Positions 2,235 through 21,288 of a stretch of DNA of 64,000 nucleotides are shown here, piece by piece (position 1 is the stretch's first letter; each line of letters starts with the position of its first letter). The stretch is from the NCBI RefSeq assembly GCF_000428945.1, contig NZ_AUAX01000002.1:124001-188000 (forward strand). The letters run 5' to 3'. The translations under genes and the position numbers were made by a program. The notes under the pieces are model-generated. The model was not told where the DNA came from. It made no database searches and saw nothing but the letters and a program-made list of their open reading frames with translations. This DNA is from Hamadaea tsunoensis DSM 44101. Lineage in GTDB: Bacteria; Actinomycetota; Actinomycetes; Mycobacteriales; Micromonosporaceae.

Positions 2235-3434
2235 TCAGAGCGTGACGGGCAGCGCCGCGAGCCGGTGCGCCTCCGGATCGTCCACATAGGTCAGATCGGC
2301 GGGGTCGGCAGCCAGGGCGAGCTCCGGGAACCTTTGCAGGACGCGCGTCAGAGCCACGTCGATGATCACCCGGCCGAGCGCGTTGCCGGCGCAGCCGTGC
2401 GGCCCGTGCGCGAAACCCAGGTGCGGCGGCGAACCCGCCCGCAACGGCCGCGCCAGCCAGAGCCGGTCCGGCTCGGCGAAGACCCGCGGATCCCGGTTGG
2501 CGGCCGCGATGCAACCCACCACCGCACTGCCGCGCGGGATGACCACGCCGTGCACTTCGACGTCGGCGACCGCGTACCGCGGGGTGCTCAGCACGTGCAG
2601 ACCGCACCAGCGGACGAGTTCGTCGATCGCGGTCGCCGCGCCGGCCTCACCTGAGCGCAGGGCCGCGCACTGGTCCGGGTGGGTCAGCAGGGCGAGGAAC
2701 GCACTGGCCAGCAGCCCGGACACAGTGGACGACGCCATGATGTTGATCCAGACGAAGCCCTCCAGGTCCGCGGCGGCCGGCTTCGGGTCGCCGGCCAGCA
2801 GGAGCGAGAGGACGTCCTCGCCCGGATGCGCCTGCCGGTACGCGATCGCCGCCCGCGACCGGTCGAGGATGGCCGGCATGACCTCGGCGAAGCGGCCCGG
2901 GACACCGGAGCCGACCGGCTCGGGGAACCCGCGCCACTGAACGTGGTCCGCCTCCGGGATGCCGAGGAAGGCGGCGGTGGCGTCGATCGGCAGCGGGTCC
3001 GCGAAATGCCGCAGCAGGTCGACCGCACCACCCTCGGCGCGGTCCGGCAGCTCGTCGAGCAGCGCGTCGACGATCGACTCGATCCGGGGCCGGAACTCCG
3101 CGGCCCGCTGCGGGGTGAACGTCCGCGCCATCCCCGACCGCAGCCGTTTGTGACCCTCGTGGTCGACCAGGGTTGCTTGGATCTGCGCGCCGCCCTCCGG
3201 CGGGACGTCCGGGGTCACCGCGCTGTCGGCGGTGAACGCGAACCGGGGGTCGGCGAACATCGAGCGGACGTCGGCGAACCTGGTCAGCGCCCACTTGGCG
3301 GGCAGACCCAGCGCCAGTACGCGTACCAGCGGGGACTCCTCGCGCAGGCGGCCGTAGACGCCGATCGGGTCGCGGTGGACCTCCGGGTCGTGGACGACGA
3401 TCCTCGGCACCGAGGCGATCGCGGGCTGCGTCAC
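2235..3434 (-). CDS. Cytochrome P450 (P450-2), paralogue of P450-3 and P450-4
   Basis: 399 residues. GTG start at 3434, two bases after the stop of the JmjC gene, so the two are translationally coupled. Heme loop FAHGPHGCAG, ExxR as ELVR, and the conserved PRYA and AANRDPRVF blocks are present. The I-helix reads MASSTVSG, so the acid of the AGxDTT consensus is replaced by Ser. Extensive block identity with the P450s at 7972-9261 and 11901-13103 shows recent paralogy. It converges on P450-1 with a 31-base gap. Likely a tailoring oxidase of the same pathway as the JmjC oxygenase; substrate unknown. Confidence 0.92.
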   Translation of the reverse strand: MTQPAIASVPRIVVHDPEVHRDPIGVYGRLREESPLVRVLALGLPAKWALTRFADVRSMFADPRFAFTADSAVTPDVPPEGGAQIQATLVDHEGHKRLRSGMARTFTPQRAAEFRPRIESIVDALLDELPDRAEGGAVDLLRHFADPLPIDATAAFLGIPEADHVQWRGFPEPVGSGVPGRFAEVMPAILDRSRAAIAYRQAHPGEDVLSLLLAGDPKPAAADLEGFVWINIMASSTVSGLLASAFLALLTHPDQCAALRSGEAGAATAIDELVRWCGLHVLSTPRYAVADVEVHGVVIPRGSAVVGCIAAANRDPRVFAEPDRLWLARPLRAGSPPHLGFAHGPHGCAGNALGRVIIDVALTRVLQRFPELALAADPADLTYVDDPEAHRLAALPVTL

Positions 3435-3436
3435 GG

Positions 3437-4324
3437 TCAGCTCACATACGTCAGATAGGACTTGTACAAGGGGAAGATGACCTGCGGCGGTACGCGCAGC
3501 CCGACGCCGAGCAGCGACAGCAGGTTGTAGTAGCTGTTCTTCCAGGGAGCGCCGCGCGCGACGCTGACCAGCCCGTCCCGGGCGCTGTCGGCCGTGTGCC
3601 AGTCGATGTTGAACGCGACCGTCATGCTCAGGTTGGTGACGTGGTGCAGCGTGCCCGACGGCATGTACAGGGTGTCGCCGGGTTCCAGGTCGACCGTCAC
3701 CGGCGTCACGCCGGAGGCGAGCGGGAACGCCTCAGGGTCCGGCTCGATCGGGTCGTAGCGCATCCACCGCCAGCTCTTGGGGTAGCACAGGGCGCGCTGC
3801 TCGGCCGGGATGAGCACGAACCGCTTGTGCCCGGCCAGGTGGAAGAACAGGTTGTGGGTCAGCAGCGTGTCGAAGTGCAGCGGCGTCGAGCTGCCGGTCG
3901 GGCCCATGAAGAACTGCGCGTACTCCTGCCACGACTGCCAGTACCACTTCGGGAACAGCGGCAGCGGGAACGGGGACGCTTCCTCGGCCAGTTCGGGGAA
4001 GAAGCGGAAGATCGGCACGTCGTGGAGGTAGCCGGGCCCCACCGAGGGTTCGCCCGCCCGCGTACGCGCCTCGTGCTGCTCCAGCGCGTCGGCATAGTCG
4101 CCGATCGACATCGAGACGCGGCGCCCGTCGGCGACCGAACCCGTCTTCACCCCGAGCTTGGCCGAGTCGGGCAGCCGGCGGAAGCGTTCCAGGCCCCAGT
4201 CGAGGGCCTTCCACTCGGCGGTCAGGCCGCGCAGGACCACCGGTCGGCGGGGCTTGACGAAGTCGCCGTAGAAGCCGGGGCGGTCGATGCCTTCGACGAC
4301 CGGCACCGAATCCCAGCTACGCAT
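3437..4324 (-). CDS. JmjC/cupin-8 family Fe(II)/2-oxoglutarate oxygenase
   Basis: 295 residues, the usual size of bacterial cupin_8 (PF13621) hydroxylases. It starts at ATG 4324 behind AGGACA. The double-stranded beta-helix metal site is visible: HFD (first His and Asp) in TPLHFDTLLTHN, the nearby Lys of GHKRFVLIP that normally contacts 2-oxoglutarate, and the distal His in MPSGTLHHVTN. Relatives hydroxylate amino acid side chains in proteins or peptides, or tRNA bases. It is first in a two-gene operon with P450-2 (2-base gap). In this setting it is most simply a side-chain hydroxylase acting on a peptide or carrier-bound amino acid (inference). Confidence 0.88.
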   Translation of the reverse strand: MRSWDSVPVVEGIDRPGFYGDFVKPRRPVVLRGLTAEWKALDWGLERFRRLPDSAKLGVKTGSVADGRRVSMSIGDYADALEQHEARTRAGEPSVGPGYLHDVPIFRFFPELAEEASPFPLPLFPKWYWQSWQEYAQFFMGPTGSSTPLHFDTLLTHNLFFHLAGHKRFVLIPAEQRALCYPKSWRWMRYDPIEPDPEAFPLASGVTPVTVDLEPGDTLYMPSGTLHHVTNLSMTVAFNIDWHTADSARDGLVSVARGAPWKNSYYNLLSLLGVGLRVPPQVIFPLYKSYLTYVS

Positions 4325-16063: not shown

Positions 16064-17914
16064 ATGTCCGAGTTCCATGCGCCGACCGGGTTCAGCCCCG
16101 AGGATGTCCCGCTGGCGTACGAGGAGCTTCCTCATGCCCAGTTGCTGGATCTCGTGTATGACGCGGTGGTCGCGTTCAGCAGCTTCCCGCCTACCGTGAT
16201 CGGCATCCACGCGCCGCCGGGTCATCACGGCACATCACTGTTGTATCGCCTGCGTCATCGCCTCGACCCGGAGAGTCCATTCGAACCCGCCACTCACCAC
16301 CTCGTCGCGTACGAGCCTGTCAGCCCGATGAAGCGGTGGGCACAGGGCGGACAGGTCCGTACCCGGCTCACGAGATTCTGGTTATGGCGTCAGTCGCATC
16401 GCCCATTCCTCAATTCGCACGAACTGCCGTACAGGATGGAGCCGCTCACGGGTCGTGAGTCGGCGGCGGCAGTGACGATGATGCTGGATCCGTCGACCTA
16501 CGAGACGCCGGAGCATCTCTGGGACGGATTGACCACGGAAATCGTCGAAGGAGTCGTCCGCCGGCTCCCCGGCGGGCAGGTGCAACGGCTACGGTTCGAC
16601 CTCAACCGGCATCGCATCGACCCGCTCGCGCTGCGGCGCCGGATCCTGGCCAGCTTCCTTCCGCGTACGCTCATGGGCGCGCTGGCCTTGTGCACGGCTG
16701 TCGCACTGATCGTCATCGGCGTCGTCACCGCCAGCATGACGGCGATTCGCACCGTCAACCTGTCCACTCTCCTCGGACCCACGGCGGTCATCGTCCTGGC
16801 GGTCCTGGGATTCCTCGGCCGTTCCGCGATATCACAAGCAGGTACGCTGGGAACCTGGCTCCTCTCGCAACGCGACGGAGTCCTCGGCCCAGGAATCCGC
16901 CGACGCGACGCGACGATGCCGGCCGGGCGGGCGGAACGCCTCGAAGACGAAGTCGGCCCGCTGCTGAGTCTCGCCACCCGCGACTCATCCGTGATCATCT
17001 TCCTGCGCGGCCTCGACCGCTGCCGGCCCGAGATCGTCGCCGCGACGCTGGACTTCGTCCACGTCTTCATGAACGGCGCGCTGCCGCCATGCACCTTCGT
17101 GCTGGCCTACGACGCCCCGACCGTAGCCGCCCAGCTCGAAACCATCCACACCGGCCTGCGCGAACGAGCGCTCGCCGAGCCGCTGTCCTACGGCCACCTG
17201 CGCCACAACGGATGGGCCATCCTCGAGGACTACATCGACCTGCCCGTCCGCATCCCCAGCCTGCACGGCCGAGCCGCGGCAGACCACCTCTCCCCCTGGC
17301 TGCGCCGGCCCGGCACGAGGTCCGCGGACACGTCGCCCTACGACGTACCGCAGCCACGTCCAGGCGCCACGTCACGCCCACAACCGGAGCCCGAGAGCGA
17401 TCCCTATGATGGCCCGGCGCCGCGATCGTTCGCACAACCAGAGCTCCTCACCGACGTGCCCGAACAGCCCTGGTCGCGGATCGAGGACCTGGAAAGCGTA
17501 CGCACGGCGATGAGCCTGGCCGTCCAGGCGATACCGGATCTGTCGCCGCAACGGATCGGTGTCTTCATCAACGTCTGGCGCTTCTACGTACTACTGCAGT
17601 ACCAGCGCGGGCAGCTGTCCTTCGCTCTTGACGAGGTCGTCAAGCGCGGATGCGAGACCGCCCGGTACGCCGCCATCCTCGTAGGGTGGGCGCCGATTCT
17701 CGCCGGCCTGTCCCGACCTGCGGTGGGCAACGGTTCCGAGCTGCATCTGACCCGACTGCTTGCCGCGGCCGGGGACGACCATGCCTGGCAGACGGCCACG
17801 ACGGAGACGGGCCTCGATCCGCGCGACCCCGCCGCGGCCGCACTACGCGAACTCCTCCGCCAGCCCGACGGCGACGACACGATCCTCGCCGACCTCATCC
17901 GCCAATATCTCTGA
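16064..17914 (+). CDS. KAP-like P-loop NTPase with membrane insertion, degenerate active site
   Basis: 616 residues; ATG 16064 behind AGGGAG. KAP family (PF07693) features are an LDRC element with an xPEIV tail near residue 320 (FLRGLDRCRPEIV), FVLAYDAPTVAAQLE, and two adjacent membrane helices inserted at about residues 205-260. The Walker A region reads GIHAPPGHHGTSLL: the Lys is missing and Gly spacing is broken. The Walker B Asp pair is replaced by RG. So the fold is kept but ATP hydrolysis is doubtful. The C-terminal half has a Pro-rich linker and a helical domain. KAP NTPases are linked to membrane signalling and phage exclusion (PifA). The next gene, a zinc-protease-like protein, may work with it. 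Confidence 0.75.
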   Translation: MSEFHAPTGFSPEDVPLAYEELPHAQLLDLVYDAVVAFSSFPPTVIGIHAPPGHHGTSLLYRLRHRLDPESPFEPATHHLVAYEPVSPMKRWAQGGQVRTRLTRFWLWRQSHRPFLNSHELPYRMEPLTGRESAAAVTMMLDPSTYETPEHLWDGLTTEIVEGVVRRLPGGQVQRLRFDLNRHRIDPLALRRRILASFLPRTLMGALALCTAVALIVIGVVTASMTAIRTVNLSTLLGPTAVIVLAVLGFLGRSAISQAGTLGTWLLSQRDGVLGPGIRRRDATMPAGRAERLEDEVGPLLSLATRDSSVIIFLRGLDRCRPEIVAATLDFVHVFMNGALPPCTFVLAYDAPTVAAQLETIHTGLRERALAEPLSYGHLRHNGWAILEDYIDLPVRIPSLHGRAAADHLSPWLRRPGTRSADTSPYDVPQPRPGATSRPQPEPESDPYDGPAPRSFAQPELLTDVPEQPWSRIEDLESVRTAMSLAVQAIPDLSPQRIGVFINVWRFYVLLQYQRGQLSFALDEVVKRGCETARYAAILVGWAPILAGLSRPAVGNGSELHLTRLLAAAGDDHAWQTATTETGLDPRDPAAAALRELLRQPDGDDTILADLIRQYL

Positions 17915-17985
17915 CGCCGCCGAGCCGACCACATGGGACGTGACAGTCGCAGCACGGTCGGCCATCCGTACAGCACGAGGACGCT

Positions 17986-18486
17986 TTGACACGCTTACAA
18001 CAGGCGGCATATGACGCCCAGCTGGCGGCCGGACTGCCGATCAGCCCGCTGGCGACGGCGATCCTGGCGTTGGACGCCCGCCTGATCACTGTCGAGCACT
18101 GCGCCAGCTACATAGACACGATTCAGCAGATGCCATGGTTCCGGGCTGCGTTCCCGGCACACAGCGTGCTGCTGCACATCATCGGCGGACGCGGGATCAG
18201 CCATGCCGACGCGCGGCGCAGCCAGATCAAGGTCGGAGCCACCGACCGACAGTCCCCCGCCCGATGCGAGCATGCGTGTCTGCACGAGCTGGCCCATATC
18301 GTCAGTAGCGACTACGCGGATGACGGAGTCCTGCGCGAGCCGAAACTCGGCCGCGCCAGCAGCAAAGGCCACCACGAGGCGTGGCGCGTCAACTTCGTCT
18401 TCATCGTGAGAATGGTTCTGGGTGGGCAGGCCGCGGCCCGGCTACGGCGGGAGTTCAACCAATGGGGCCTGCCGACGCGGAAGTGA
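17986..18486 (+). CDS. Small zinc metallopeptidase-like protein (HELAH)
   Basis: 166 residues. TTG 17986 is chosen because GAGGA lies six bases upstream and no other start is in reach. The zinc motif is CLHELAHIV, with SSKGHHEAWRVNF downstream, resembling actinobacterial metallohydrolases of the TIGR04338 type. No signal peptide. It starts 72 bases after the KAP-like gene on the same strand. Its substrate is unknown, and pairing with the KAP protein is inferred from position only. Confidence 0.7.
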   Translation: MTRLQQAAYDAQLAAGLPISPLATAILALDARLITVEHCASYIDTIQQMPWFRAAFPAHSVLLHIIGGRGISHADARRSQIKVGATDRQSPARCEHACLHELAHIVSSDYADDGVLREPKLGRASSKGHHEAWRVNFVFIVRMVLGGQAAARLRREFNQWGLPTRK

Positions 18487-20093: not shown

Positions 20094-20825
20094 GTGCCCA
20101 AGCTGAACCAGATCATCGCCGTCGAAAAGGGTGTCAAGAGCCGGTCGCTGCAGGAGCTGACCGACGCGCACCGCGACGTGCAGAAGCCCGCGCTGCTGTC
20201 CGGCATCGCGCGGACGTATCAGGCCAAGGACGAGGAAGGCGAGCAGTTGCCGCCCGAGTCCACGAAGGTCCAGATCCGTACCGAGGAAGTGCTGCGGGGC
20301 GTGGCGGTCACGCTGACCCGGCTGTTCGACGTGACCGCGACCAAGGACGCGACGAACTGCGTCGCGCGCGCGGACGTCGTCGTGGACGACGACACGCTGC
20401 TGTCCGATGTGCCGGTCAGCTACCTGCTGTTCCTGGAGAAGCAGCTGACCGACCTGCACACGTTCGTCAAGAAGCTGCCGATCCTGGACGCGGCCGAGTC
20501 GTGGCAGTACAACGACTCCGCGGACAGCTGGTCGACCGAGCCGGTGCGTACGCTGCGGACGAAGAAGGTTCCGCGTAACCACGTCAAGGCCGAGGCGACC
20601 GAGAAGCATCCGGCGCAGGTCGAGGTGTACTACGAGGATGTCACGATCGGGTACTGGACGACCGTGAAGTTCTCCGGTGCGCTGCCGGCCAAGCGGGTCT
20701 CCGAGCTGCTGGAGCGTGTCGAGAAGCTGCAGAGCGCGGTGAAGTTCGCCCGCGAGGAGGCGAACGGCACGCAGGCGGTCGACCGCAAGGTCGGCGACAA
20801 GGTCTTCGGCTACCTGTTCCGATGA
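20094..20825 (+). CDS. Conserved actinobacterial protein of unknown function upstream of Y RNA-like elements
   Basis: 243 residues; GTG 20094 with AAAGGGGAAC upstream. Soluble, no signal peptide. The N-terminal LNQIIAVEKGVKSR block and the central YEDVTIGYWTTVKF look strongly conserved, and I recall this protein type from actinobacteria as an uncharacterised family. Codon use is slightly less extreme than its neighbours. It is followed after 10 bases by a hairpin and then by two tRNA-mimic RNAs and a terminator, so it may share a transcript with them. It has no TROVE fold and is not Ro/Rsr. Confidence 0.75.
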   Translation: MPKLNQIIAVEKGVKSRSLQELTDAHRDVQKPALLSGIARTYQAKDEEGEQLPPESTKVQIRTEEVLRGVAVTLTRLFDVTATKDATNCVARADVVVDDDTLLSDVPVSYLLFLEKQLTDLHTFVKKLPILDAAESWQYNDSADSWSTEPVRTLRTKKVPRNHVKAEATEKHPAQVEVYYEDVTIGYWTTVKFSGALPAKRVSELLERVEKLQSAVKFAREEANGTQAVDRKVGDKVFGYLFR

Positions 20826-20835
20826 CCCACAGACT

Positions 20836-20860
20836 CCCTCGCAACACGCAAGCGCGAGGG
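20836..20860 (+). other. Stem-loop after the 20094-20825 gene
   Basis: Perfect 7-bp arms CCCTCGC (20836-20842) and GCGAGGG (20854-20860) with an 11-base loop, starting 10 bases after the stop codon. No U-tract. It may be a weak terminator or a processing boundary before the RNA elements downstream. Confidence 0.45.
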
Positions 20861-20884
20861 TGCGCATGAGCGCAAGCTGAAGCT

Positions 20885-21001
20885 GAGGCTCAAGCTGACC
20901 AACCGCGGCCACAGTGCGGGTTCGAGCCCCGCCCCCCGCATTTCCTGTGGGGGTAGCCCAACTGGCAGAGGCAACCGCGGATCAAGTTCAGACTCTTGCT
21001 C
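20885..21001 (+). ncRNA. Permuted tRNA-like RNA A (bacterial Y RNA / YrlA-like)
   Basis: The order of parts is that of a tRNA opened at the anticodon loop. T-arm GCGGG-TTCGAGC-CCCGC (20916-20932), acceptor 3' strand CCCCCGC (20933-20939), A plus 6 bases, acceptor 5' strand GTGGGGG (20947-20953, one G-U), TA, then D-arm GCC...TGG...GGC (20956-20972). The outer strands CCGCGG (20903-20908) and CCGCGG (20975-20980) pair as an anticodon-stem equivalent. They extend through an internal loop into CTGA/TCAG, CAAG/CTTG and GAG/CTC helices with 3-base bulges on opposite strands. YrlA-type Y RNAs have exactly such a closed tRNA-like module on a Ro-binding stem. Outer ends are approximate. Confidence 0.6.
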
Positions 21002-21040
21002 CAGACTCAGCATTCGCCATTGATCGCCGGATCGACCGCC

Positions 21041-21143
21041 GGCGGGCATCAGCACCAGGTTGCGGGTTCAACTCCCGTCCGCCGCTCTTCATGCGGCGGT
21101 GGCTCAACGGCAGAGCATGGTGCCCTCAGCCCGACCCGCCAGC
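21041..21143 (+). ncRNA. Permuted tRNA-like RNA B (bacterial Y RNA / YrlA-like)
   Basis: Same architecture as RNA A. Stem strand CACCA (21053-21057), GGTT, T-arm GCGGG-TTCAACT-CCCGT (21062-21078), acceptor 3' strand CCGCCGC (21079-21085), T plus 6 bases, acceptor 5' strand GCGGCGG (21093-21099, perfect 7 bp), TG, D-arm GCTC-AACGGCA-GAGC (21102-21116), A, then TGGTG (21118-21122) pairing with CACCA. The outer helix gains a sixth pair and continues after an internal loop as CGGGC/GCCCG (or the alternative GGCGGG/CCCGCC). The anticodon-loop region has no U33, so a decoding tRNA is unlikely. Ends are approximate. Confidence 0.62.
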
Positions 21144-21180
21144 TTAAACGCCATCGGCGAGTGCAATTCAGTGGCACACC

Positions 21181-21212
21181 GAGGCCCGGGACAGGACATG
21201 TTCCCGGGCCTC
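21181..21212 (+). terminator. Strong stem-loop terminator after the RNA elements
   Basis: Perfect 11-bp arms GAGGCCCGGGA (21181-21191) and TCCCGGGCCTC (21202-21212) with a 10-base loop. This GC-rich form without long U-tract is typical downstream of actinobacterial tRNA genes and supports a stable-RNA transcript ending here. Confidence 0.75.
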
Positions 21213-21288
21213 ACCAATTCTTCGCGCGCCCCCACTCCGTTTCGGGGCGAAACATCGATGAGTGGCGCCGGCGTGGGACGCTGTGCGC

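Follow-up and report, generated by a model that had tools for sequence, protein, structure and literature searches.

Mimicry of tRNA by a stable bacterial RNA with a dedicated protein has so far been represented by tmRNA and the Y RNAs. In tmRNA, which acts with SmpB, a long helix stands in place of the anticodon arm, a feature shared with the RNA described here. The Y RNA YrlA (RF02553), part of the Ro60/Rsr ribonucleoprotein (RNP) and usually encoded next to its Ro/Rsr partner, carries a permuted tRNA-like head which is closed by a loop and whose anticodon-like stem runs into a long basal helix. Here we describe a predicted RNA with a related organization, located in a stretch of 64,000 nucleotides (nt) from Hamadaea tsunoensis DSM 44101 (contig NZ_AUAX01000002.1, positions 124,001 to 188,000), referred to below as the window. 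It lies directly 3′ of a gene for a protein of the uncharacterised family DUF7873 (PF25283), combines two permuted heads in one conserved unit and, judged from the sequences compared, is independent of Ro.

Permuted tRNA-like sequences are known in other settings. In primitive eukaryotes and archaea there are circularly permuted tRNA genes, in which the 3′ half comes before the 5′ half and a short spacer separates the two. The RNA described here shares this order but has no anticodon loop, and its flanks run on into rods instead of forming halves for joining, so that no decoding tRNA can result. In permuted two-piece tmRNA the tRNA-like domain is likewise ordered as 3′ half, spacer and 5′ half and has a protein partner; an excerpt of PMC3985003 names RNase P and tRNase Z as the probable processing enzymes for these genes, which provides a precedent for excision. 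For YrlA, an excerpt of PMC8394870 states that the basal stem tethers Rsr while the tRNA-like domain binds PNPase and is accepted by DusA and TruB. The head type is already known from YrlA. The doubled RNA, the protein, the independence from Ro and its spread in phages together with DUF7873 are new as far as our searches reach: full-text literature searches returned no paper on this RNA or on DUF7873, although they covered open-licence papers only, so that this absence proves little.

Two permuted tRNA-like heads in one conserved unit

The DUF7873 gene (20094..20825, forward strand) has a GTG start, encodes 243 amino acids and ends with TGA. Two elements follow on the same strand. Element A (20876..21012) is a putative rod formed by a CTGA/TCAG-rich helix with conserved flanks CAAGCTGAAACTGA... 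and CTCAGACTCTCGCTCCAGNCTCAGC, and bears head A (20903..20980). Element B (21024..21161) includes a closing helix, a rod and head B (21052..21123); its conserved TTAAACG (21144-21150) faces GATCGACCG.

In both heads the T-arm and 3′ acceptor strand come first and are followed by a 7-nt loop, the 5′ acceptor strand and the D-arm. Head A includes a T-arm at 20916-20932 (loop TTCGAGC), a 3′ acceptor strand at 20933-20939 which pairs at 7 of 7 positions (one of them G-U) with the 5′ strand at 20947-20953, and a tRNA-Leu-like D-arm with GG at 20956-20972. Its acceptor stem is closed by the loop ATTTCCT (20940-20946). Head B has a T-arm at 21062-21078 (loop TTCAACT), acceptor strands at 21079-21085 and 21093-21099 (again 7 of 7 pairs) closed by TCTTCAT (21086-21092), and a D-arm at 21102-21116 with a short D-loop and GG; position 73 is U. 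The flanking strands pair as an anticodon-like stem, CCGCGG at 20903-20908 with 20975-20980 in A and GCACCA (21052-21057) with TGGTGC (21118-21123) in B, and this continues into a longer helix. The heads, their loops and the flanking stems had been pointed out in a preliminary description of the region, which also proposed opposed 3-base bulges in the stem of A. Its account of heads, loops and flanking stems was confirmed on our reading of the sequence, as was its remark that the heads do not fit normal linear tRNAs, ARAGORN calling no tRNA in the window. When an artificial 7-nt loop was added, ARAGORN called all 14 heads from seven bacterial loci as tRNA, in a trial that had no negative control.

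This arrangement is far more frequent beside DUF7873 than expected from background. We used a descriptor of the permuted head which demands most T, acceptor and D pairs and leaves the anticodon-like stem free. On both strands of the window it has two matches with at least 6 of 7 acceptor pairs, A and B, and four further matches with just 5. Across 152 bacterial, phage and viral loci it finds 215 matches (2.29 per kb) in the 600 nt that follow DUF7873 on its 3′ side and 25 in the remaining 1.75 million strand-bases of the same loci (0.014 per kb); one locus (L128), in which the gene has no stop, was excluded from this and later descriptor counts. The anticodon-like stem is paired on average at 5.59 of 6 positions in the 151 bacterial heads, compared to 4.54 when flanks are swapped between heads, and at 5.14 compared to 4.08 in the 64 phage and viral heads.

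The preliminary description had looked to compensatory changes in homologous loci, and these proved to be abundant. The alignments contain 38 regions for element B and, for head A, 33 of the 52 listed head-A stretches, including a cyanophage and a Klebsiella phage. Their rows were picked with the descriptor. Given the 38 B regions and no preset structure, RNAalifold recovered the complete head, with T-arm, acceptor stem and D-arm, as well as the anticodon-like stem, the rod and the closing helix. In element B, 34 of 38 pairs show double compensatory changes; these changes occupy 310 cells (84.6 in shuffles), the covariation score is 0.641 (0.213 in shuffles), and 94.8% of cells are paired, compared to 37–48% on sliding by 1–3 columns. 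Covariation in B extends to the rod, the closing helix and the anticodon-like stem, none of which the descriptor demanded. In element A, where the scoring applies to the head and not to the rod, 99.4% of cells are paired and 13 of 16 pairs covary. As judged by this comparison, the permuted heads are real and represent tRNA mimicry in the closed form known from YrlA, here as a tandem.

The two heads are parts of a single larger conserved unit directly 3′ of a conserved gene. The interval given previously, 20885-21143, covers both heads and misses the unit as a whole and the neighbouring gene. The core measures ~290 nt, or ~380 nt with flanking hairpins, the ends being approximate and sequence-based. 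Two short hairpins obtained by single-sequence folding (20836..20874, forward strand; CCCTCGC..GCGAGGG and TGCGC ATGA GCGCA) directly follow the stop codon, and similar hairpins also pair in the consensus of 60 bacterial sequences; they possibly constitute the 5′ edge of the RNA. Downstream, a GC-rich hairpin without a T-run, GAGGCCCGGGA...TCCCGGGCCTC (21181..21212, forward strand; single-sequence fold), is a possible 3′ end or terminator, and its counterpart, a CCCGGGA-type stretch, is present in most bacterial rows of the alignment. Scans for sigma-70 promoter and T-run terminator consensus sequences gave no match, a result which is uninformative for actinobacteria.

The large structured RNAs GOLLD, ROOL and OLE, some of which are found in phages near tRNAs, also bear a likeness to this RNA. 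None of them was matched by Rfam, either in the window at gathering scores or in 20800-21260 up to an E value of 10.

Association with DUF7873 in bacteria, viruses and phages

The product of the neighbouring gene matches DUF7873 over residues 1-242 (Pfam 389.1 bits, gathering threshold 27, E 1.2e-116). It is the single match in its genome and has no match in NCBIfam, PHROGs or PADLOC. There are at least 567 relatives in the genome collection, and the best 80 of these, which are 76–88% identical to the window's protein, were taken with their flanks; together with others they make up the 86 bacterial loci examined.

For element B we built a covariance model, R1. Its 38 training sequences (27 bacterial loci, 10 viral loci and the phage locus L088) are the 41 non-redundant two-head loci minus L013, L079 and L153. 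The copy in the window (L001), included in the training, scores 127.3 bits (E 7.4e-33). R1 matches element B in all 86 bacterial loci at 58.8–142.7 bits (27 of these were in training), including one (L085) with DUF7873 on the minus strand of the locus, and finds head A in 71 of them.

The association is equally tight when whole genomes are considered. Among 148 genomes of the class, DUF7873 is present in 9 and R1 reaches at least 58.8 bits in exactly the same 9, always within 0.5 kb of the gene and on the same strand; copies of two class genomes, Hamadaea itself (G000) and G107, belonged to the training set. The next-best match, at 47.7 bits, is a tandem tRNA-Asn pair (L170). Because tandem tRNA-Asn genes match the model, ordinary tRNA genes in tandem were considered as a source of artefact and were excluded by ARAGORN and by the score of B, which is far above these 47.7 bits, although head A alone reaches only 36.8. 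An E value of 0.001 is passed by 33 of the 148 genomes, 9 of them of the DUF7873 type. One checked place among the other matches is a tandem tRNA, and several coincide with YrlA matches near genes for the Ro (TROVE) protein. In a wider sample of the phylum DUF7873 is present in 6 of 246 genomes. Deinobacterium chartae has the sole DUF7873 match among 14 control genomes and also the sole TROVE match there.

In viral (IMG/VR) contigs, R1 scores at least 49 bits in 50 of 59, of which 10 were used in training and several duplicate one another. In addition, 73 phage records carry DUF7873, and ten of these loci were examined. In nine a head is located within ~0.9 kb 3′ of the gene, as detected by R1 or the descriptor; these are phages of Arthrobacter, Gordonia (two), Rhodococcus, Pseudanabaena, Rhizobium (two), Klebsiella and Vibrio. 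Named phages outside the training set include Mimi (107 bits), NiceHouse (100), Ziko (78) and Pam2 (53). On the strength of these matches, related gene–RNA pairs are present in actinophages and cyanophages, with weaker and more divergent ones in the Rhizobium, Klebsiella and Vibrio phages. The pair is spread over actinobacteria and phages with hosts from three bacterial phyla. One viral contig (L115:2501-3220) has an internal stop codon in its DUF7873 frame, possibly from a phage with a reassigned stop, and was excluded from the protein alignment for this reason.

Across 71 loci no further neighbour family is shared between lineages. The only cluster present in all of them is an antisense frame of DUF7873, and other shared neighbours are limited to groups of at most 12 loci.

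Relation to YrlA and Ro

The preliminary description took the two heads for YrlA-type Y RNAs which tether Ro. The head architecture agrees with this. The Ro-tethering part was not supported: the genome has no TROVE match, YrlA scores are below threshold and the elements track DUF7873. The Rfam YrlA model, proposed there as a check, gives 29.5 bits for B and 19.8 for A with a cut-off of 69, and no Rfam family matches the window at its gathering threshold. The YrlA cut-off alone is a weak argument because none of the 148 class genomes has a hit that reaches it (best 56.2 bits).

The Hamadaea genome, which is 99.5% complete, has no Ro/TROVE match. In the class sample TROVE is found in 17 of 148 genomes, including 6 of the 9 with DUF7873, at other places in the genome; two genomes (G171 and G328) keep the element and have no TROVE match. 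We considered the eight best YrlA hits of the class sample with DNA at hand (L178-L185). Seven (42–56 bits) lie ~0.9 kb from a TROVE match and carry TACTTC 19–25 nt before the T-stem; the eighth (L182) is, by sequence, a tandem of tRNA-Asn genes. TACTTC occurs within 60 nt in only 1 of 215 DUF7873-linked heads. The TROVE-linked RNAs with TACTTC stand apart from the DUF7873-linked heads, and Ro–YrlA and the DUF7873 RNA are therefore separate loci which can coexist in one genome. As a side observation, the Rfam YrlA model seems too narrow for the class, where the TROVE-linked RNAs L178-L181 and L183-L185 reach 42–56 bits.

The two kinds of RNA thus have the permuted, loop-closed head and its long helical extension in common, and a tandem of two such heads is also seen in two TROVE-linked loci (L183 and L185). 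They differ in several ways. The proposed partner here is DUF7873 and not Ro/TROVE; two heads, a conserved linker and a closing helix form one unit; the D-arm of head A is that of a tRNA-Leu and its loop often starts with NCCA; and the RNA lacks the TACTTC of the TROVE-linked RNAs and is spread in phages with DUF7873. We read it as belonging to what would be a second, Ro-independent tRNA-mimic RNP with a protein of its own. The Y-RNA head architecture would then recur without Ro, doubled and with a different, widespread protein, which points to permuted tRNA heads as modules that can be reused. The DUF7873 family gains a concrete candidate partner and a test, and a covariance model is now available for an RNA that Rfam 15 misses at its thresholds.

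A putative two-gene RNP and other explanations

We consider it rather probable that DUF7873 and one structured RNA 3′ of its gene form a two-gene RNP module, in which each of the two rods of the RNA ends in a permuted tRNA-like head. Transcription of the RNA would take place together with that of the DUF7873 mRNA or immediately after it, and DUF7873 would bind conserved parts of the rod and of the internal loop (CTCAGACTCTCGCTCCAG, GATCGACCG/TTAAACG). The heads keep the T-loop/D-loop elbow and the 7-bp acceptor stem but lack an anticodon loop, and might be read by elbow-recognising enzymes; candidates are RNase P, enzymes that add CCA or modify tRNA, or a nuclease, like PNPase in the case of YrlA. 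The RNP would in this way offer the tRNA machinery two decoys or docking arms, as a Ro-independent analogue of the Ro/Y RNA particle. The least certain step is that in some members RNase P and 3′ processing may remove the acceptor loop, so that tRNA-like ends remain, as they do in permuted two-piece tmRNA.

Several observations weigh against a module of this kind. RNA binding by DUF7873 is suggested through guilt by linkage. The AlphaFold2 model of the protein (pLDDT 91, pTM 0.67) shows a beta region surrounded by helices; none of its fold matches is convincing, and hence it gives no biochemical hint. Foldseek against PDB and BFVD returned nothing at E ≤0.001 and the best PDB sequence-profile match has an E of 0.051. 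Head A has no R1 match in 15 of 86 bacterial loci. In the five of these that were read (L010, L021, L030, L049 and L086) a short hairpin or unrelated sequence takes its place and the flanking core is kept, so two heads are not essential. Nine of 59 viral loci lack a 49-bit match: three are cut or partial, four have weak matches in place, and the remaining two, L109 and L110, identical over 420 nt, have no head 3′ of the gene and no R1 match. The Rhizobium, Klebsiella and Vibrio phage loci reach just 25–37 bits near the gene, and in the Microcoleus phage locus (L094) the sole R1 matches are at least 1.8 kb away from it. The acceptor loops add further such points: most bacterial B loops start with TCT and not NCCA, U is the last base in only 12 of 39 bacterial A loops, and in 6 of 29 distinct long loops the two ends are fully paired with each other, as a sealed hairpin that would hide an NCCA end. 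Processing is therefore not universal as described.

Two kinds of structural neighbour of DUF7873 were left unused: small phage proteins of BFVD, such as A0A2H5BQ40 of Vibrio phage Vp_R1 (probability 0.97, TMq 0.41), whose match E exceeds 0.001, and 3kdq (VIA; Z 9.3, root-mean-square deviation 8.0 over 147 residues), a protein of unknown function.

Excision of the loop by tRNA-processing enzymes is nevertheless plausible, and for many members we would put its chances at about even. Distinct loops start with NCCA in 15 of 39 cases for bacterial A, 5 of 46 for bacterial B and 1 of 15 for bacterial single heads; in phages and viruses the corresponding counts are 7 of 18, 8 of 17 and 13 of 21. The random expectation is 1 in 64, although the loops are related by descent, so that this comparison does not amount to a test. 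U precedes G1 in all 17 phage and viral B loops. Loop length varies from 4 to 84 nt, the longest (viral contig L138:3337-3480) containing a complete tRNA-Thr (TGT) gene (3368-3440) inside the acceptor loop of head A; the T- and D-loops of this head are degenerate, which argues against excision. The 29 long loops mentioned above are the 39 long-loop rows minus L066 and L114, which look spurious, L138 with its tRNA gene, and seven repeats. A reverse-strand control of the long-loop search gave 1 hit in 0.94 Mb.

A bolder version of the module, to which we give a small chance, would be a third kind of tRNA-mimicking RNP beside tmRNA–SmpB and Ro–Y RNA: carried by phages and actinobacteria, it would be made as a double permuted precursor whose loops are excised by the tRNA-processing machinery, and the two-headed particle with DUF7873, one head being a leucylatable tRNA-Leu mimic, would act on translation or tRNA turnover during infection and stress.

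The presence of DUF7873 homologues in so many phage records also invites another explanation, in which the RNA would act as a decoy for, or inhibitor of, defence nucleases or toxins that attack tRNA; phages would have spread it, and bacteria would keep it for immunity or counter-immunity. This would suit the annotated tRNA genes found within 3 kb in 7 of 10 phage loci (L087-L090, L092, L186 and L187), and an excerpt of PMC7790460 suggests YrlA as a competitive inhibitor of anticodon nuclease. The heads, however, have no anticodon loop and hence no cut site for anticodon nucleases; the protein identity within the best 80 loci is steadier than we expect of conflict genes, and PADLOC gives no match. 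We regard the decoy explanation as unlikely, though worth keeping in mind.

The resemblance of head A to tRNA-Leu raises the question of a tmRNA-like translation factor, whose heads would be freed by RNase P and 3′ processing, with head A leucylated, the rod standing for the anticodon arm and DUF7873 acting like SmpB on ribosomes. In all 85 two-head loci the best match of the head-A D-arm is tRNA-Leu, within a comparison set, mostly of phage tRNAs, made up of 227 ARAGORN tRNAs of these loci from which 14 calls within the RNA region were removed. In the 9.48-Mb host genome the D-arm pattern occurs three times, in head A and at two places which by their coordinates are in tRNA-Leu genes. Leucyl-tRNA synthetase is not known to require the anticodon. 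Among distinct bacterial loops, position 73 is occupied by A in 35 of 39 for head A and by U in 39 of 46 for head B. G1-C72 is present in all but one (A) and all but two (B) of 66 bacterial pairs. The A73, the NCCA loops, the tRNA gene contained within one loop and the permuted two-piece tmRNA likewise fit such a factor. On the other hand, inspection by eye recognised no tag-coding stretch of the kind that tmRNA combines with its alanine-charged tRNA-like domain, head B has no clear isoacceptor match, some loops are sealed and head A is unmatched in part of the bacterial loci. No tmRNA is among the Rfam matches to 20800-21260 up to an E value of 10 or the ARAGORN calls in the window. Compared to permuted tmRNA there are two heads here, an intact D-arm, a spacer excision that is putative and a different protein. 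Such a factor is, in our estimation, quite improbable.

A suggestion that head B mimics tRNA-Gly was dropped as unsupported, its best matches being scattered over many isoacceptors. The two tRNA-Leu genes with the head-A D-arm are part of an array in the same genome (contig C15, ~70.8–72.1 kb, L158), where 12 tRNA genes are found within 3.1 kb; this array is perhaps mobile or prophage-derived.

The position of the element would also allow a cis-acting 3′ untranslated region (UTR) of the DUF7873 mRNA, serving self-regulation or as an mRNA processing signal and with no function of its own. The element is always 3′ of the gene, and where both heads are seen head A starts 51–216 nt past the stop. 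Two full tRNA-like heads exceed, in our judgement, what a 3′ UTR stabiliser needs, and in L129-L132 element B is ~550–730 nt from the gene, and we give this explanation a very low probability. Least probable of all is a diverged pair of canonical YrlA RNAs bound by Ro/Rsr acting from elsewhere, which would suit the shared permuted head, the sub-threshold YrlA scores and the six DUF7873 genomes with TROVE, but not the three genomes (Hamadaea, G171 and G328) with the element and no TROVE, nor the seven cases in which TROVE has its own YrlA-like RNA nearby, with a TACTTC that is missing from 214 of 215 DUF7873-linked heads.

Elsewhere in the window, at 16064-18486, a gene for a KAP-family P-loop NTPase is followed by one for a short protein that contains a HELAH stretch, resembles a metallopeptidase by eye and has no Pfam match; the two form an uncharacterised pair.
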